In this document: piece after piece, positions 7,810 to 48,982 of the stretch | Numbering within the stretch: position 1 is the stretch's first letter | How the letters are laid out: each line of letters begins with the position of its first letter | IMG/VR virus record: IMGVR_UViG_3300041964_000212 | Location: 1-48,982 of that record | DNA from: a virus | Reading direction: 5' to 3' (one strand) | Length of the DNA stretch: 48,982 nucleotides | Translations under genes and position numbers: made by a program | Notes under the pieces: model-generated | Seen by the model: the letters and a program-made list of their open reading frames with translations, nothing else | The model's database searches: none | What the model was told of the DNA's origin: nothing

Positions 7810-9771
7810 ATGGAATTATCAAAATTTCAAGAATTAATTTTGCAAGGTGTAAATATTCGTTTAGCGGATATGTTGCGTTCCTCGTTTTGCGACTCAGAAT
7901 TGAAATTGAAAGGAATGTTGATTGAAGCTTTAGCCGGCACTGGCAAATCATTTATTTTAGTGCAAATTTGCCAGCAGTTAGCTCACATGGGTGTCGATCC
8001 AGATGAAGTGCGTTTGGTGGTATTTGGGCGAAAAAATAAAGCTGACCTGCAATCAAAGTTGGGGATGCAGTGCGGTGGTAAATGGGTAAGCTCAGTCTGC
8101 ACTCTCAACTCGCTGGGATTTCAAATTCTCAAAGACGCCACAGGTGTAGATAATCCCTTGTGGAAAGTCGAAAACCTGAAGTACACCAAAATAGCTAGAG
8201 AATTTGGGTACATCTCTCGTTATGAATTTCGGCGGGGAGAACGGGTAAAAATTGATGGCAGTTTGTTCGGTGCTTTGGAAAAATCCGCAGATTTTTTAGA
8301 TCGCGAGTTTTCAAATTTGCTGGAAAAATTCCGCATTTATTGCCTGCCAGTTACTTCAGAAAATTTGGCAGTGCTGATTTCTGATAATTTAGAATTAGTG
8401 CCAATCATTGTAAAAGGTTCATTACTGGAAAAAAATATACTTGCAGCTTTAAATCAGTGCTTGCAAGAAGGTTATCAAAAAGCTTGTGGGCAGTATTGGA
8501 TCGATTTCACCGATCAAGCTTGGGTATTGGTTGCAGGAATGAGAAATTTTTATTCCTACGAACAAATGGAAAACAATTTTGCTTCTACTTTTCAAAAATG
8601 GAGCCAGCGTCTAAAATTTGTAGCGGTAGATGAGGCGCAGGACACCGATCCGCTGCAAATTGAGTTGCTGTCGAGATTGATAGATCCATCCCGCAATTTT
8701 TTGTGTGCGGTGGGTGATCGCAGGCAAGCCGTCTACTCATTTCGAGGTTGCGTCTCTGACGGACTTGATCGCTTTCAGCGGGATTTTAACTGTCAAAGTT
8801 TCTTATTGCCAATCAACTACCGTTGCGGAAAATCTCACCTCCGCTTGGTGAGGGAAATTTTTCCCGACATTTTGATCGAACCAGCGCCAAACGCGATCGA
8901 GGGCGGAGTCAAAGTGCTTAAGTGGGCTGAGTTTCCCGGTTTGTTTGCTGATCGTACCTTATCTTACATCGGCATTTGTCGCCGGAACGCACCCTTGATC
9001 ACCACAGCTTTACAGTTGCTGGGAATGGGGCTGCCTGTAAAAATTAAGGATTCCTCATTGGCAAAAAAAATAGTTGCAGAAATTGATAAAATCTGCAAAA
9101 AACTTAAGTGCGATTATGCGGAAAGCTACAAAATTTTCCCTTCATTAATTGCTCAATACGAGCAAGCTGAACGGGAAAGATTGTTTGCATATGAGGACGG
9201 CGAGCAGCGGCTCGAAACGCTCGGCGATATGTTGGCTGCTATTTTGGCACTCTACGAAGCTTACGAGCCCCAAACACTTGCCGAGTGGGAATCGTCAATT
9301 GATCGGATTTTTGATGAGTCTGAAGACAAAGCAATCAATCTGTATTCCATCCACTCCGGGAAGGGTGGCGAAGCAGACGTGGCTTTTGTCATTAATGCGG
9401 AGAATATGCCGCTAATTCACAAAAAACAGACCGCAACCGAGCGCGAACAGGAAAACAACTTGCTCTATGTCGCGCTAACTCGCGGGCAAAAAACTTTAGC
9501 ACTGATATCGGATGAGCCAACTAAGATTAGCTGGTTGCCACAGAAATATTTGAAAAAAGAGGAAAAACAAATGACGATCAAATCAGACCTGCCATCTTCG
9601 CCAGAACCTGCCGAAGTTTTGGAAGATTTGACGCACAGCGAAATTTCAGAAGAAGATTTGTTCGTTCTAATAGCCCAGATCGAAGTTTTACCTCGATCGC
9701 AGCAGCGGACGATCGTCCGGGAATTGATCGATCGTCTGGGTCGGGAATCGATCGCCTCACTCTTGGACTAG
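7810..9771 (+). CDS. UvrD/Rep-type superfamily 1 DNA helicase
   Basis: A 653-aa SF1 helicase. Motif I 'ALAGTGKS' at 40-47 binds ATP; motif II 'VAVDEAQDTDP' lies near 272; motif III 'AVGDRRQAVYSFRG' near 300; 'INYRC' near 336 is motif IV; 'IHSGKGGEADVAFVIN' is the motif V region; 'NLLYVALTRGQKTL' near 550 is motif VI. It is shorter than UvrD (~720 aa), mainly in the 1B/2B insertions. A C-terminal acidic tail after residue ~590 ends with a small helical region. Predicted 3'-5' helicase in phage DNA replication or repair. It sits in the early block ahead of the ASCH and methyltransferase genes. Confidence 0.88.
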   Translation: MELSKFQELILQGVNIRLADMLRSSFCDSELKLKGMLIEALAGTGKSFILVQICQQLAHMGVDPDEVRLVVFGRKNKADLQSKLGMQCGGKWVSSVCTLNSLGFQILKDATGVDNPLWKVENLKYTKIAREFGYISRYEFRRGERVKIDGSLFGALEKSADFLDREFSNLLEKFRIYCLPVTSENLAVLISDNLELVPIIVKGSLLEKNILAALNQCLQEGYQKACGQYWIDFTDQAWVLVAGMRNFYSYEQMENNFASTFQKWSQRLKFVAVDEAQDTDPLQIELLSRLIDPSRNFLCAVGDRRQAVYSFRGCVSDGLDRFQRDFNCQSFLLPINYRCGKSHLRLVREIFPDILIEPAPNAIEGGVKVLKWAEFPGLFADRTLSYIGICRRNAPLITTALQLLGMGLPVKIKDSSLAKKIVAEIDKICKKLKCDYAESYKIFPSLIAQYEQAERERLFAYEDGEQRLETLGDMLAAILALYEAYEPQTLAEWESSIDRIFDESEDKAINLYSIHSGKGGEADVAFVINAENMPLIHKKQTATEREQENNLLYVALTRGQKTLALISDEPTKISWLPQKYLKKEEKQMTIKSDLPSSPEPAEVLEDLTHSEISEEDLFVLIAQIEVLPRSQQRTIVRELIDRLGRESIASLLD

Positions 9772-40034: not shown

Positions 40035-40886
40035 TTAGACCTTTGTTGTTGAACTGCGAACTTCATAAACCCTAAGCTGTTCTTCACTACCGACAGCGCG
40101 AGCCACCTCGTTAGGCAATAGAGTACGATTTGGGTCAACATCCAAACCAGTTGCATTTGCATGGATTTTCCAAATCAATGCTCGCATCCGACCGAAATCG
40201 GTATCATCAGACTCCCGAATTTCCATCGGCATAGATTCAGCCATACCCAACGCATCGGCACCGAAAGCAAAACTCGATCGAGTAATAACAGGAGTGCCAC
40301 CCAAAGTCTCTGTCTGAACACCGGGAGAACCGGGTAAACCAGAACTGATATTAGTAGATTCAAAACAGTGGAACCCACGAACCCGACCTTTGTAACCGTT
40401 GACTTTGCCCATGTATTCTTGGCGAGTCTTCAGTTGGAGCATATTAGTCAAGCCTTCGACTTGGGAGTTATCCGCATATTGGGATTTCTCAGTCATGTCG
40501 TTTTCTAAAGATGTAAAATGGTCAGCAGTGCCGACAAACAGGAAACAACCATCGTCGAGAGGTGGTACTTTGTCGTTAACCATTCGAGCTCGCAGCGACC
40601 CAAAAAAGTTCATTGTCAATTGACCGCCACCGCCCGCCGGAACTCCAGCAGCAGTATTAACAACGGTTCCGTTGTTGTTGTAAGCTACAACCGTTGAAGA
40701 AAGCAGTATTTCAAACAGCAGCAAATCTTCCCACATCCCGTAGTTGTAACCAATTCGTTCCTGCACCAGTCGCTCGATATCAATGATGGTCACAGCGTTC
40801 ACCAACTCATGGATACCTAACGGTTCCACAACAGCATCTTTACCCATACCCCATTCCAAAATCGGGACAGGAAACGCCGTTGCCGT
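40035..40886 (-). CDS. Major capsid protein, C-terminal portion (in -1 frame)
   Basis: This frame continues the capsid gene after an apparent indel near 40887-40874. It reads 'AFPVPILEWGMGKDAVVEPLG', 'IHELVNAVTIIDIERLVQER', 'DGCFLFVGTADHFTSLENDM', 'VRGFHCFESTNISSG', 'ALIWKIHANATGLDVDPNR' and ends 'EEQLRVYEVRSSTTKV'. Several features recall N4-gp56-like major capsid proteins. There is no separate start or ribosome-binding site before it; a TAA at 40889-40887 closes the frame upstream. One inserted base in the mismatched stretch would make one protein of ~640 aa with the upstream part. Confidence 0.65.
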   Translation of the reverse strand, partial: TATAFPVPILEWGMGKDAVVEPLGIHELVNAVTIIDIERLVQERIGYNYGMWEDLLLFEILLSSTVVAYNNNGTVVNTAAGVPAGGGGQLTMNFFGSLRARMVNDKVPPLDDGCFLFVGTADHFTSLENDMTEKSQYADNSQVEGLTNMLQLKTRQEYMGKVNGYKGRVRGFHCFESTNISSGLPGSPGVQTETLGGTPVITRSSFAFGADALGMAESMPMEIRESDDTDFGRMRALIWKIHANATGLDVDPNRTLLPNEVARAVGSEEQLRVYEVRSSTTKV

Positions 40887-41938
40887 TTAAGTTTTGGCGA
40901 GTAGGACGATCGGATGCCCGGAGTCAAACGCCAATCAGAAGAAGTTACGCCAACATTAAGATGTCGAACGCGAGGAACCAAAACCGTTTGATTGATCGGG
41001 ATACCCGTATAAATCTCTTTATTACAGAATTGCCACAGAACAAAACGGGCGCTGTGTTCAATCCGCACAACTTGGCTGAGGTATTCGCGAAGCGCGATCG
41101 GGAAATTAGCAAAAGTTGTTGGTGCGTCCTTTCCGTTCCAGGCTTGGTTCCGACCTTGCAGCAATCCGTGTTGACGGGCGATCGCATCAATACCTTCGCG
41201 CAACACCTTGCGATTTTCAACGAAAAATTGATCGGTGTACCGCGAATTTCGCTGTACATAACTGCCTGTAGGCGTGGTAACCAGTCGAGCTTCAGTTGTG
41301 TTTTTGTCTTTACATCGGCGCTCAAATTCTTGCACCGCATCTTTCGGCGACATTCCCCCACGAGTTGACAGAGGCGCGATAAATGCGGTTTGGCTTGGCG
41401 CGCGATCGCTTTCCGGTGCAGCGTACCCAAATTGCGAAAATACGCGAGCGTAAGTATCGCGTTGTTTGCGCTCAGTTTCAACTTGCGCTTGTAACTTTTC
41501 TTGTTCTTTCTGAGCAGCGTCTTCGATCGCGTCTTGTTGTTTCTTTGCTTCGGCAAGGCTATCTTGAGCTTGTTGCAGTTGCTGCTGGAATTGGGCGGTT
41601 TCTTGCCTGATTCCCCCATCAATCAGCATTTTGAGCTGGGTTTCCGTGATAGTCAGAGTCCCGTCATCGTGAAAAGTCATGGGCGCGGGCGGAAGATGCG
41701 TCCCCTGAGAATCGCTTGCCTGTTGTGGTGGCGCGCTTGTAGATTCATCGCTGCCGACTATCCTACCAATTGGTGGCGGGGGAAGCTGCTCAGGCGGAAT
41801 GTCTTCGTTGTTAGAAAGGCTGTCAGAGCCTTGAATTCTTCCGCGCTGCTGCTGTTTGAAACTGTTAATTCGCGCTATACCATCAATTTCTGTATTAATT
41901 TTCCTTACATTTGCTGTTTTTGCAAAACCTTTACTCAT
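40817..41938 (-). CDS. Major capsid protein, N-terminal portion with scaffold-like region
   Basis: 373 aa. Residues ~1-95 are disordered and Pro/Gln/Ser-rich; ~95-170 are a Gln/Glu/Lys coiled coil like HK97-type delta/scaffolding regions; the rest is capsid-like: 'FFVENRKVLREGIDAIARQH', 'ALREYLSQVVRIEHSARFVL', 'TGIPINQTVLVPRVRHLNVG'. After 'SDWRLTPGIRSSYSPKLKRQ' the frame shifts to meaningless residues, while the -1 frame gives sensible capsid sequence. The scaffold domain would drive procapsid assembly and be removed by a protease, possibly the upstream 327-aa protein. The frameshift may be a sequencing error or a real lesion. Confidence 0.68.
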   Translation of the reverse strand: MSKGFAKTANVRKINTEIDGIARINSFKQQQRGRIQGSDSLSNNEDIPPEQLPPPPIGRIVGSDESTSAPPQQASDSQGTHLPPAPMTFHDDGTLTITETQLKMLIDGGIRQETAQFQQQLQQAQDSLAEAKKQQDAIEDAAQKEQEKLQAQVETERKQRDTYARVFSQFGYAAPESDRAPSQTAFIAPLSTRGGMSPKDAVQEFERRCKDKNTTEARLVTTPTGSYVQRNSRYTDQFFVENRKVLREGIDAIARQHGLLQGRNQAWNGKDAPTTFANFPIALREYLSQVVRIEHSARFVLWQFCNKEIYTGIPINQTVLVPRVRHLNVGVTSSDWRLTPGIRSSYSPKLKRQRRFLSRFWNGVWVKMLLWNR

Positions 41939-42011
41939 ATCAAAAAACTGAAATAGTTAATTTCAATGTACTTGCAAAACTTGAGCGTGACACAACAATA
42001 TGACGTTTTGC

Positions 42012-43266: not shown

Positions 43267-43584
43267 TCAAAAAGGATAAACTGGTTTTATTTTGTACCCA
43301 ATCGAGTTTGAAAGCTGTTTGACAAGTTCCTGTTTGTAACTCCGCAAATCGCAGCTTCGATTTTCTTTCCACTCTATCACGTCAAGTTTTGTCATTCCCG
43401 TAGACGCTTTGCGGATCTCTTCCGCATTTGCATCTAATTGCTGTATAAGTTCAATTGTTTGTTGCGCCATTTGCTCAGAAGTGCTTTCTACTAAATCGCA
43501 CAACAAATCAATCGTTATTTTAGACGTAATAGGTAATTCCAAATACCTAAGTATTTTTCCCCTGTCTGTTGTTGATATTGGCAT
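43267..43584 (-). CDS. Hypothetical helical protein, 105 aa
   Basis: 105 aa, mainly helical, between portal and protease-like genes. 'TDRGKILRYLELPITSKITI', 'QMAQQTIELIQQLDANAEEI' and a basic C-terminus 'YKQELVKQLSNSIGYKI'. Its start overlaps the portal stop by one base. It could be a head-tail or portal-associated protein; no family is recognised. Confidence 0.6.
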   Translation of the reverse strand: MPISTTDRGKILRYLELPITSKITIDLLCDLVESTSEQMAQQTIELIQQLDANAEEIRKASTGMTKLDVIEWKENRSCDLRSYKQELVKQLSNSIGYKIKPVYPF

Positions 43585-44942
43585 TACCCTACCTCTAACA
43601 ATTGCGATTTGCCGTTTTTAATGGCTTCCAATCCTTCTCGAACATTCCGATCGCTGGCAGTTGTCAACCAGTCTAACTCTTTCCTAAGTCGCGTTGAATC
43701 TAAATCTTCTATTCCTAAATTGTTAGATTCTTCAGCTTCCAAAGGGTTTAATTGAGTTTCAAACTGATTTACGTACAGTTTTGGCCACACAATTCTGTAC
43801 AACCATTTATTTTTTTCGATGCCGTGCAAAGCTAATTCTAAATTGCATAAATGTTTAATAACTGAATATGTAATTAAAGCGCGATCGCCGTTTAAGCTGC
43901 GCGCGTAATTGAGCATCGGTTGCGTAGCAATATCGTTAGCCCCTCCCCAACTGTAACCCATTAGATACAGCGGAATTTTTGATTTGCGGGCTATCGCTAA
44001 TTGAAATTCTTTCAAAACAGCTATCAATCCTGAAAAGTCTGGATTTGTAGTAGATAATTTTTTCAAGTCTGCGCCATTCATCAAATAATAATCAGTGATG
44101 TTACCGCCTCGCCGCATTCTTTCTCGGTGAGCTTCCTTGTAAGCCTGCATATCGTCTTTGCTGTATTCACAGGGCATCAAGTGCAAGTTTGGATTTGTAC
44201 CCGTAGCTCTGGCTGCATTTGGCAGATCAAATTTGATATTTTCTAATTTTTCCCAATCTTCGATCGACTCGTAAAAAAGCGATCTGCCGTACAAATGCGG
44301 GGGGCGCCACCGATACCGTGCGTGCGCGCAGGCGATTGGGTGAAAATTTAAGGCACTGGATTCGTTGGAAAGTTGTGCTCTCTGCTGGAATCCCAAAAGT
44401 TCTCCGTTCGGGTTTTCAATGCGGAACATTTCAAAAGTTGGCGGAAACAGCACCCGCTCGATCCTGTTAGTTTTTGTGTTCACGCCGATTGACAAAAACC
44501 AATCTCCCCATGCCATCAACAATTCCGGCCCTGCATCTAACATCAGTCCCCCAATTACTTCTTCCCGCAACCGCTGTAAAATTTTGTAAACTTCCGGGTC
44601 GATCAGGGTTTTGTTGTCGTTAAGCGTCGGTGCGATGTCCCAGCCACGATCGTCTCCAGTGGGATTGCTCCAAATTGCTTCACGCCTCAAATCAAGAGCC
44701 AAAGTGATTTCAGGAGAACTCTCAATCATCTCTACTAACTTGCGAGTACGCCCGTCGCTGCGGATAATGGGTTCCCTAATTTCCAAATCGTACTGCCGAC
44801 CGTAAAGCGAGTCGCTGTCGTACCCTGCCTGAGAAATCGGCTTTGATCGCCCGCCAACTACGGTGCGGGTGTAGTTAGTGATAAGCTGCCAAATATTCTC
44901 TAGCAGTTTGTTTCGGCCGGGAGTGGGTAAGGGCGATCGCAT
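43584..44942 (-). CDS. Portal protein, Mu gp29-like
   Basis: 452 aa. The order 'IREPIIRSDGRTRKLVEMIE', 'SPEITLALDLRREAIW', 'YGRSLFYESIEDWEKLENIK', and 'KIPLYLMGYSWGGANDIATQ' is typical of dodecameric portal proteins, and the overall plan resembles DUF935/Mu gp29. The portal forms the ring at the vertex through which DNA is packaged by the terminase. The gene follows the tRNA-like gene and TerL. The start at 44942 is 33 nt before the tRNA-like gene on the other strand. Confidence 0.82.
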   Translation of the reverse strand: MRSPLPTPGRNKLLENIWQLITNYTRTVVGGRSKPISQAGYDSDSLYGRQYDLEIREPIIRSDGRTRKLVEMIESSPEITLALDLRREAIWSNPTGDDRGWDIAPTLNDNKTLIDPEVYKILQRLREEVIGGLMLDAGPELLMAWGDWFLSIGVNTKTNRIERVLFPPTFEMFRIENPNGELLGFQQRAQLSNESSALNFHPIACAHARYRWRPPHLYGRSLFYESIEDWEKLENIKFDLPNAARATGTNPNLHLMPCEYSKDDMQAYKEAHRERMRRGGNITDYYLMNGADLKKLSTTNPDFSGLIAVLKEFQLAIARKSKIPLYLMGYSWGGANDIATQPMLNYARSLNGDRALITYSVIKHLCNLELALHGIEKNKWLYRIVWPKLYVNQFETQLNPLEAEESNNLGIEDLDSTRLRKELDWLTTASDRNVREGLEAIKNGKSQLLEVG

Positions 44943-44975
44943 TAAGTTTAAGTTAAAATTAAAATATGATTGATC

Positions 44976-45081
44976 GGGAGGGTGGCGGAAAGTATACGCA
45001 CCATGTTTAGAGCGTGGCGCCGAGCACCATGTTTAGAGCGTGGCGCTGAAAGGTTTGAGGGTTCAAGACCCTCCTCTCCCA
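44976..45081 (+). tRNA. tRNA-Leu(UAG)-like gene with duplicated anticodon arm
   Basis: Acceptor stem GGGAGGG (44976-44982) pairs with CTCTCCC (45074-45080), then discriminator A; D-stem GCG/CGC; anticodon stem CCATG/CGTGG (45001-45005, 45013-45017) with loop TTTAGAG and anticodon TAG at 45008-45010; T arm GAGGG/CCCTC (45057-45073) with loop TTCAAGA. A 26-bp segment from 44998 to 45023, holding the anticodon arm, is repeated at 45024-45049 with one mismatch. The D loop has one G where two are usual. Without one repeat the gene would be 80 nt, a normal class II Leu tRNA. The gene reads opposite to the surrounding late genes. Confidence 0.75.
44998..45049 (+). repeat. 26-bp tandem duplication inside the tRNA-like gene
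   Basis: Bases 44998-45023 and 45024-45049 match at 25 of 26 positions (C at 45021 versus T at 45047). Each copy carries the complete anticodon hairpin of the tRNA-like gene. Confidence 0.9.
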
Positions 45082-45113: not shown

Positions 45114-46373
45114 TCAATCAAAATCTGCGGCAAGAATTTCCTTACTTAGCGCGTGATACGCGCCGGAACTGGCATCTGTCAAGTCGCTAATTTTTGGTTT
45201 GCGGATTTCGTTGAAAGCATAAAGCGCGTCAATGTAAACACCGTTCCAATCTCCCCTCAACAACTTTACGTTACCGCGCATAAATTCAGACGCTAGCGGT
45301 TTTGCCCTGGTAATTTTATCTCCCAACGGTTTTACCGCAGCAGCGGAAAACTTTTCAAGCAGCCCTTTAAGGTGCGCCGCGTCTCTAATCCCCGCCGAGC
45401 CTCCCTCCAATTCCCAACAAACTTGCACGTTCCGACCATCTTGTTTAGCTGTTGCTTCAATCAAAGTATCAGCTTCGGCAGGAGAAACGTGTTCGGCGAT
45501 CGCATCCAGCACGTAATAAATACCATCAACTTTTTTCATTTTAACCCCAGCAGTGAAAAATGCGGATGATTTTGTACTTGCTGCTAAGTCCCAAAACCTT
45601 ACAATTCGACCGCCCGCAGGTACTCGATCGACAACCTCAAACCACTCACGCTTAAATACCGCACCCGCGCCTTTAGCCTCAAACGGAATGCAGTCTAACT
45701 CTTCTCGGGCATTAATGCCGTAGTCTTTCCGCAATTGTTCGATCCAAGCGTGTTCACGCTCGATCGACCATCGTTGATTTGAAACCAGACAGATGCGGTG
45801 GTACAATCCATCGGCGATGGCAGTATCTAAGTCGTAGCGATGGTAGGAGTAGTTGAGTTCCCCGGTTTTGCACTTCTCAATTAGTTGGTTGAAATAGTTG
45901 TCTTTTCCGTTGTGGGTGCTCCAAATCGCAACTTTGCCGCCCCACATATTGATAGCCAGCGCCGCCTTAATCAGTTCTTCCAAGTCGTCGTGGAATGCTG
46001 CCTCGTCAATCCGCAACCGTCCCTTCTTTGATCGCAAGTTCGCTGGACGCGACGACAACGCTGTGACTTTGAACCCAGAGTCAAACCGGATAGTGTAAGC
46101 AAGAATGTTTTTGTCCGGTTCCTCAATGACCGATTCGTTGATACCAGAACAAGCTAGATTGTACGCCCGCGCCCAGTACGCAACATCTTCTATATATTGG
46201 CGGCTCATGTCGAAGTTATAGCCAACATACCAAGAGTCGGAACCGTTGATTTCAGCCGCTACTAATGCCGAGTCAGCAGCATCTGCCCAACTAATCCCGA
46301 TCCGCCTCGACTTCTCGCAAATCTTAATCGGACTCCTGTCCCGGCTCCACATCTGCTGATATTTCAAGAGCAT
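45114..46373 (-). CDS. terL: Large terminase subunit, Mu gp28-like
   Basis: Start chosen at ATG 46373 ('MLLKYQQMWSRDRSPIKICE'), matching the family beginning; an earlier in-frame start at 46514 would overlap the small subunit by 190 bp. ATPase: Walker A-like 'KICEKSRRIGISW' near 17-30, Walker B 'RLRIDEAAF' near 122. Nuclease: 'IVRFWDLAAST' near 260, 'VCWELEGGSAGIRDA' near 318. This fits a FluMu gp28-type terminase. It translocates DNA into the prohead through the portal and cuts concatemers. Overlaps the small subunit gene by 50 bp. Confidence 0.88.
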   Translation of the reverse strand: MLLKYQQMWSRDRSPIKICEKSRRIGISWADAADSALVAAEINGSDSWYVGYNFDMSRQYIEDVAYWARAYNLACSGINESVIEEPDKNILAYTIRFDSGFKVTALSSRPANLRSKKGRLRIDEAAFHDDLEELIKAALAINMWGGKVAIWSTHNGKDNYFNQLIEKCKTGELNYSYHRYDLDTAIADGLYHRICLVSNQRWSIEREHAWIEQLRKDYGINAREELDCIPFEAKGAGAVFKREWFEVVDRVPAGGRIVRFWDLAASTKSSAFFTAGVKMKKVDGIYYVLDAIAEHVSPAEADTLIEATAKQDGRNVQVCWELEGGSAGIRDAAHLKGLLEKFSAAAVKPLGDKITRAKPLASEFMRGNVKLLRGDWNGVYIDALYAFNEIRKPKISDLTDASSGAYHALSKEILAADFD

Positions 46374-46980
46374 CGGCGGGCTGGATGCCCAAAAGGTGCT
46401 GTCGAATAAGTGCTGCTGTTTCGGGGGTGAGTCCAGTAATTGCAGCTTCCGTACTGTCGGGGAAAATTCCCGCAACCGCCTGTCTAATAACGAGCTTAAT
46501 GTTGTTAATTTCACTTTGTGCTAAATTTAATAACGATCGAGGGAGCCACCCTGCATTTACGAAAGCGGTAAAAGCTTCAAGCTCGTCTGATGGTTTGCCA
46601 AGAACTCGATCAAGAATTTTGACCGGAGTAGGAGATCGAACTTCCCTAACCGTTTTTTTTACATAAGAGCCAAACTTGTCAGAAGTTCCTTCTTCAATTA
46701 TTGTAATTTTTGTGACAGTCCCATTCTGCAAATAACTTTCTAAAACTTTATCTGCTTGCAATTTTAGCGTTTCATGCCTCCGAAACAAACGCTCTTGCTT
46801 TGCTTCTTCTACGAGTCTAGCAAACTCAGGGCGATTACGCATCCATGTATAAAAAGCTTCTTGACTAATTCCGGCATTTTTGCAAGCGCGTTGGTTACAG
46901 CCATGTTCCACTAACTCTTTCTGGATAACGTCCAGCTTAGCTTGAGTGTATAAAGTGTTTCTTCCTCTTTTGGTTTTCAT
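46324..46980 (-). CDS. terS: Small terminase subunit-like protein
   Basis: 218 aa. An N-terminal helix-turn-helix, 'YTQAKLDVIQKELVEHGCNQ' and 'ACKNAGISQEAFYTWMRNRP', is followed by helical 'EFARLVEEAKQERLFRRHET', a middle region and an acidic C-terminus. TerS proteins bind packaging sites in the phage genome with such a domain and stimulate the large subunit, encoded just downstream. The array of TTTAATACA nonamers at 46987-47051 directly before its start is a candidate binding site. Confidence 0.8.
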   Translation of the reverse strand: MKTKRGRNTLYTQAKLDVIQKELVEHGCNQRACKNAGISQEAFYTWMRNRPEFARLVEEAKQERLFRRHETLKLQADKVLESYLQNGTVTKITIIEEGTSDKFGSYVKKTVREVRSPTPVKILDRVLGKPSDELEAFTAFVNAGWLPRSLLNLAQSEINNIKLVIRQAVAGIFPDSTEAAITGLTPETAALIRQHLLGIQPADALEISADVEPGQESD

Positions 46981-47257: not shown

Positions 47258-47731
47258 ATGAACATAATTACTGAGACCGTATCTAAAATAATGCACTTAG
47301 GTAGCTCAGAGGAGCCTACCAAGGAAACTGAATCCGAAGAACAACCAGGGAAAGAACCTAAATCAAAAGAATTAAAACCGGAGGAAACCCCACAAGAACA
47401 ACCTGCGCCAGAACCTGCACCGGAACAAACCACACCTGAGCAACCAACTGAGTCGCAAATACAAAAACCTATGCCCCCAGAAGGGCAGCGGCTACCTCCG
47501 AACGAACGAGTCAACGCTGCTTACAAGCTGGTCTATGGCGAGAATGCTGAGATTCCGATCCAGCACGAGTCGATCGCCACCGACCAAGATGCTGATTGGC
47601 ACATCCGCAGCTATATGGGCGGTTTGTTTGCCACACCGAACGACCATCCACTGACTCAAAAGTTTAACGATTTGGAAGAGTTGCTGGAATGGTTTAACGA
47701 GACTTATCCAGCGGCAGCCAGGGTTGAATAA
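47258..47731 (+). CDS. Acidic Pro/Glu-rich protein, 157 aa
   Basis: 157 aa. Residues ~15-75 are a Pro/Glu/Gln/Lys-rich disordered stretch ('PAPEPAPEQTTPEQPTESQI'); the C-terminal ~70 residues look globular ('RVNAAYKLVYGENAEIPIQH', 'DADWHIRSYMGGLFATPNDH', 'KFNDLEELLEWFNETYP'). A good promoter precedes it. No function is recognised. The style resembles other accessory proteins in this window and it lies between terminase and the putative att boundary, where phages often carry cargo. Confidence 0.65.
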   Translation: MNIITETVSKIMHLGSSEEPTKETESEEQPGKEPKSKELKPEETPQEQPAPEPAPEQTTPEQPTESQIQKPMPPEGQRLPPNERVNAAYKLVYGENAEIPIQHESIATDQDADWHIRSYMGGLFATPNDHPLTQKFNDLEELLEWFNETYPAAARVE

Positions 47732-47809
47732 CAGTTGCTCGTCGGTCTCATAAACTGACTTTCTGGTAATTCGACTCCACCCCCGACTTTATTTGATAAT
47801 TATTAAAAA

Positions 47810-48416: not shown

Positions 48417-48488
48417 GTCGAAAGCGGCAGATTGCTAATCTGTTAAGGGTGTTAACATCCTTCGAGGGTTCAAATCCCTCCCTCTCCG
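48417..48488 (+). tRNA. tRNA-Ser(GCU) 3' fragment, likely attachment site
   Basis: From GTCGAAAGCGGC in the D arm to the 3' end, the sequence matches a class II tRNA-Ser: anticodon stem GCAGA/TCTGT, loop TTGCTAA (anticodon GCT at 48434-48436), variable stem AGGGTG/CATCCT, T arm GAGGG/CCCTC (48464-48480), then acceptor CCTCTCC (48481-48487) and G. The 5' acceptor GGAGAGG and first D-arm half are absent upstream. Temperate phages often integrate into the 3' end of tRNA genes and keep such a fragment at one end. A decayed phage tRNA is the alternative. Confidence 0.75.
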
Positions 48489-48531
48489 TTCTAAGTTGTT
48501 AAGTAAGCCCACCTAAAAAAACAGAAGACCC

Positions 48532-48712: not shown

Positions 48713-48982
48713 CTATGAAGTTGCACTTAATATAGCTTCAAGGATATAGTCCCAACCACAGAGAGATAAAACTTCTTCATTAGTGAAAGATTTGATAATT
48801 CTATTTACCTGTTCTCTGAGTTTATCTAAACTCGAATAATTTTCCGACTTGAGGTCTTTTTTTGTATGCTCCCACAATCTTTCAATCGGATTTAATTCAG
48901 GACTATAGGCTGGTAAATATATTGGCATTACATGGTCAGCCCAGTCTAATAATAGAGCTTTATGGAACCTACCATTATCCAT
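48713..48982 (-). mobile_element. IS630-family transposase, partial C-terminus
   Basis: The frame runs off the window and covers the C-terminal 89 residues of an IS630-type DDE transposase: 'DNGRFHKA', 'IYLPAYSPELNPIERLWEHT', 'KKDLKSENYSS', with the final catalytic Glu in 'NPIERLWE'. The family inserts at TA; a TA at 48703-48704 followed by CCAATTCAC is a candidate end, only a few bases from the transposase stop and from the start of the 44-aa gene. Confidence 0.8.

Follow-up and report, generated by a model that had tools for sequence, protein, structure and literature searches.

Here, we describe a tRNA-Leu(UAG)-like gene of 106 nt (44976-45081, + strand) in which the entire anticodon hairpin is present twice, in a tandem duplication of 26 bp. 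The gene lies in an IMG/VR virus record of 48,982 bases, a single metagenomic contig (hereafter, the window). On balance, the structure of the gene and its setting favor a tRNA gene that was inactivated recently, no longer decodes and is dispensable to the phage, a reading that we hold with moderate confidence.

The repeat unit at 44998-45023 (+; GCACCATGTTTAGAGCGTGGCGCCGA) contains an anticodon hairpin at 45001-45017 with TAG at 45008-45010, and recurs immediately downstream at 45024-45049 (+; GCACCATGTTTAGAGCGTGGCGCTGA), with the hairpin at 45027-45043 and TAG at 45034-45036. By direct sequence comparison, 25 of the 26 positions are identical, the sole difference being C45021 in copy 1 against T45047 in copy 2, as stated in the preliminary description of this DNA, which reported a duplication of the whole anticodon hairpin with a single mismatch. 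Nowhere else in the 48,982 bases does a tandem repeat of 16-60 bp reach an identity of 92%, and the likelihood that the array arose by chance is negligible; Tandem Repeats Finder did not list it, although the direct comparison reveals it. Given the near-identity of the copies, the duplication is a young event.

Apart from the repeat, the gene has the anatomy of a leucine tRNA. The 5' strand of the acceptor stem (GGGAGGG, 44976-44982) pairs with 45074-45080 and the discriminator is A45081, with no encoded CCA; the D arm (44985-44999) reads GCG-GAAAGTATA-CGC, the variable arm (45045-45054) GCT-GAAA-GGT and the T arm (45057-45073) GAGGG-TTCAAGA-CCCTC, all on the + strand. Every stem is paired (acceptor 7/7 with one G-U, D stem 3/3, T stem 5/5, and an anticodon stem of 5 bp in each of the two copies) and the conserved T loop, TTCAAGA, is present, so that the acceptor, D, T and anticodon elements are intact, as previously claimed. 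The type II variable arm and the discriminator A73 (A45081) are both those of a tRNA-Leu. The variable arm is retained 3' of copy 2, contrary to the initial view that the second hairpin had taken its place. Instead of a single anticodon arm with a free 7-nt loop, the gene has two arms in tandem that are predicted to pair mutually. Of the usual marks of a tRNA pseudogene, a disrupted functional element is found, the anticodon arm being broken by the duplication, as is absence of the gene from this site in relatives (see below), but stem mismatches are not, no position being unpaired in any stem outside the repeat.

The short D loop has one G and lacks the GG at positions 18-19. This oddity, correctly noted before, is nevertheless common to a sister gene in a related phage contig (see below), and is an older feature of the lineage, separate from the duplication. 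A similar D loop (AAAGTA) occurs in tRNA-Leu(GAG) genes located inside tRNA arrays of two other viral contigs (L070:576-664 and L071:2394-2482), and the one-G loop may be a recurrent feature of phage leucine tRNAs.

The gene is a case that standard tRNA finders miss. The Rfam family RF00005 covers 44976-45081 in a sensitive scan (model positions 1-71, 38.8 bits against a gathering threshold of 29), the fast whole-window Rfam scan did not pick the gene up, and ARAGORN called no tRNA on the whole window. The comparison with and without the repeat, suggested at the outset as a check, was clear-cut: ARAGORN misses the 106-nt gene, but removal of either copy makes it return a clean tRNA-Leu(tag) of 80 nt. 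With introns allowed, the sole output of the program was a tRNA-Ser(aga) carrying an intron of 13 nt, an implausible call, and an intron was rejected as an explanation. Upstream, a candidate -10 box (TATGAT, 44965-44970, +) is weak and is accompanied by no acceptable -35; the consensus promoter scan listed no + strand promoter for the gene.

The anticodon arm being an inverted repeat, each tandem copy is able to pair with the other. This is the configuration in the predicted minimum-energy fold (-48.2 kcal/mol), where a single long hairpin of both copies projects from a tRNA body that is otherwise normal; if the two anticodon arms are kept separate, the best fold, in which copy 2 tips an extended variable arm, reaches -44.6 kcal/mol. 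The long hairpin, 3.6 kcal/mol better, makes up 97% of the ensemble at 37 C and the local arm 1 about 1.5%; the two UAG anticodon loops that a functional RNA had been expected to carry are, accordingly, not predicted. Identical copies would widen the gap to 6.3 kcal/mol, and the observed T45047, which pairs with A45023 (A-U) in the two-arm fold, narrows it to the present value. This substitution could hint at selection for the two-arm fold, but a single substitution proves nothing. Since folding programs leave out modification and protein binding, decoding might still be possible.

The tRNA-Leu-like gene is located between, and antisense to, two minus-strand genes, those for the terminase large subunit (45114-46514; PHROG 979, E = 3.5e-37) and, downstream of it, a portal-like protein (43584-44942; a weak match to Phage_portal_3, below the Pfam cut-off, with a 93% identical counterpart in the relative G002). 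The nearest relatives of the phage are the IMG/VR contigs G002 (3300037464_000033; 46 kb, collinear with most of the window), G003, G004 (3300018984_000003) and G005. A segment of 77 bp (48417-48493, +) matches, with 100% identity, the 3' part of a host tRNA-Ser(GCU) gene that is complete in G104 and G208, two genomes of one cyanobacterial genus, perhaps Microcoleus or a near genus; another genome of that genus, G397, carries a prophage of this phage kind. A homologous tRNA-Ser fragment is also present in G002 and G397, and Rfam labels the segment, on the opposite strand, as Plastid-psbl-rps4 3'UTR. This fragment is the probable core of the attachment site, and the window holds a temperate phage of filamentous cyanobacteria, which very probably integrates at tRNA-Ser. 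No integrase gene was recognized among the subset of ORFs scanned. Beyond the putative core, a partial transposase-like ORF (48713-48982, -) is possibly host DNA or an insertion element. Two roles for the tRNA-Leu gene in integration were considered and set aside: that of attachment site, given that the probable core is the tRNA-Ser fragment, and that of a player in tRNA-dependent lysogeny (PMC10865867), which would be needless here because the 77 bp of host tRNA-Ser carried by the phage are enough to rebuild the 3' part of that gene.

A check of the locus in related phages, which had likewise been proposed, found no tRNA gene at the terminase-portal junction of G002, G003 and G005 (33, 8 or 9 nt) or of the G397 prophage. 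A sister gene, tRNA-Leu(CAA), is present at a different place in G004, at 77909-77992 of a 110-kb record (L034:9910-9993). Its acceptor stem is nearly identical to that of the window gene, it has the same short one-G D loop and the same T arm, and a promoter-like TTGGTA-17-TATAAT precedes it by 9 nt. The sister gene has a 4-nt tandem duplication of its own (TCAATCAA) in the anticodon arm, or between the D arm and the anticodon arm, which is independent of the 26-bp one. Among host genes, the nearest to the phage tRNA-Leu genes are tRNA-Leu(CAA). With the duplications set aside, 115 of 115 cells of the alignment are paired, and 11 pairs are changed on both sides compared with a shuffled mean of 4.5, in a small alignment of five sequences (two from phages and three from host tRNA-Leu genes, one row being a different isoacceptor); in the anticodon stem, 3/5 pairs differ between the two phage genes and pairing is preserved. 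This conservation of pairing suggests that the gene descends from a structured tRNA, which before the duplication presumably worked.

The duplicated gene itself was found in this record alone. Searches with blastn in phage and plasmid records returned no further copies, an exact 22-mer of the repeat had no close match elsewhere in IMG/VR, relaxed D-arm/T-arm patterns in IMG/VR retrieved nothing beyond the sister gene and some tRNA-Leu(GAG) genes that are unrelated, and neither 386 genomes of the phylum nor 30 genomes of the host genus contained anything close to the duplicated gene; in the phylum, only a single weak match to its 3' half was obtained.

These observations can be accommodated in the following scenario. 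A temperate cyanophage carries a tRNA gene for leucine that is akin to host tRNA-Leu(CAA), and the lineage stayed structurally sound while the D loop was shortened and, in the window phage, the anticodon became UAG. A tandem duplication of 26 bp, probably by replication slippage at the inverted repeat of the anticodon arm, would then have added the second arm. If transcribed, the RNA would keep the tRNA body (acceptor, D and T arms) and might be processed by RNase P and tRNase Z, but the two anticodon arms would pair into one long hairpin, leaving no presentable anticodon. A hairpin-forming anticodon arm is a plausible hot spot for slippage, given the different duplication in the sister gene and the spontaneous loss-of-function mutants of Salmonella proL, some of which have tandem duplications of 7 nt in this arm (PMC3617221). 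The fate of another tRNA gene in the window points in the same direction: a Met(CAT)-like gene at 47717-47789 (+) is degenerate, with at least two T-stem pairs broken and the 3' C run one C short, and its collinear counterparts in G002 (1609-1681) and G397 (8716-8790) are intact, so that tRNA genes appear to be dispensable in the window phage. The contrary point is that every stem of the tRNA-Leu-like gene outside the repeat remains perfectly paired, and loss of function would therefore be very recent, incomplete or absent. Of the three possibilities raised in the preliminary description, a phage pseudo-tRNA is thus the best supported, and neither a decoy nor a new tRNA form gained positive support or a close match.

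The alternative that survives best, although we consider it unlikely, is a working tRNA-Leu with an oversized variable arm, in which copy 1 serves as the anticodon arm and copy 2 forms a hairpin that tips an extended variable arm through an outer stem (GCC/GGT) and an inner one (AGC/GCT). Charging and decoding may survive such an extension because a long variable arm is already normal for leucine tRNAs. No canonical element is damaged, the two-arm fold exists at the energy given above and is improved by T45047 relative to identical copies, and arm 1 forms first when growing 5' fragments are folded. Against these points stand the small share of this fold in the predicted ensemble, the lack of any relative with such a gene and the decay of the Met tRNA gene in the same genome. 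Still less probable, in our estimate, is a stable five-arm tRNA-like RNA with the second UAG hairpin on the variable arm, kept for its benefit to the phage, which it would serve by decoding or by drawing tRNA nucleases to a useless target; if it were real, the sister tRNA-Leu with its own duplication would join a class of genes with reworked anticodon arms.

An assembly or sequencing artefact, the true gene having one copy, is about as improbable as the five-arm RNA. The record is a single metagenomic contig, and no second assembly of this phage was found. Moreover, the same contig is frameshifted in a gene of about 640 aa (40038-41956, -), which is open in G002 and G397 and is split in the window by small indels near 40.87-40.92 kb. 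Its position in the head gene block suggests that this gene is capsid-related, and the split could stem from misassembly, from a defect in the phage or from recoding; either the contig or the phage itself is, then, not flawless. However, a clear break of frame is seen in only one of the genes compared with G002, which argues for a low rate of indel error, and the 52-bp array is below normal read length and its copies differ, so that k-mer assembly would resolve it. The earlier argument that the mismatch speaks against an artefact is in this respect sound.

We regard as doubtful, and more so than an artefact, a decoy or cleavage-resistant RNA that absorbs a host anticodon nuclease with two UAG loops or escapes it with no accessible loop. 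Phage tRNAs have been proposed or shown to counter tRNA nucleases by altered anticodon loops or tRNA supply (PMC10264068, PMC11555353), and both related phage tRNA-Leu genes have changed anticodon arms. Yet the cited cases are one-arm tRNAs with point changes or a plain supply of intact tRNA, there is neither a known nuclease nor a known pairing partner in the present case, the duplication was seen in one record only and the change in the G004 sister gene is unlike it. Finally, one unit of any tandem duplication can formally be counted as an insertion, and the long hairpin consists of double-stranded RNA, but intron-like excision of 26 nt and rejoining by host enzymes (e.g. RNase III acting on the long duplex) is very improbable, as 26 nt is far below the size of a self-splicing intron, Rfam gives no intron match and no tRNA splicing endonuclease of the archaeal or eukaryotic type is known from bacteria.

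Phage tRNAs and tRNA pseudogenes are already known, and what appears to be new is a natural tRNA gene whose anticodon arm is present twice in full, for which no example was found in the literature searched (most subscription papers lie outside it). The closest parallel is provided by the Salmonella proL tRNA-Pro mutants (PMC3617221, Table 6), which likewise have short tandem duplications in the anticodon stem/loop of a bacterial tRNA gene; those are laboratory-selected, with 7-nt units and a defective tRNA-Pro, whereas here a natural 26-nt unit spans the entire arm of a phage gene. The tRNAs of C1 mycobacteriophages and T5 (PMC10264068, PMC11555353) are similarly host-derived, phage-carried and altered in the anticodon-loop region, but have one anticodon arm and appear, or were shown, to work. 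The tRNA-Other of Bacillus cereus (PMC3399842) is another tRNA-like gene unlikely to serve translation; it borders a genomic island and is part of larger RNAs that have a regulatory role, signs not seen for the window gene. Engineered 'tRNA scaffold' RNAs (PMC3753655) also combine a tRNA body with an anticodon arm in the form of a longer hairpin; not used for decoding, they are recognized by cell factors and accumulate in E. coli. If the RNA were made and used, the gene would demonstrate how far the tRNA body tolerates an extra anticodon arm and reveal a new means by which phages alter tRNAs attacked by host nucleases; under the likelier recent loss of function, it would clearly capture in nature the death of a phage tRNA gene by a duplication of the Salmonella type.

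As a separate observation, the host genus has dense tRNA arrays, with 24 genes (L079, in G104) and 12 genes (L076, in G397) within 3 kb; these arrays contain odd extra leucine tRNAs devoid of the long variable arm and resemble known cyanobacterial tRNA operons.
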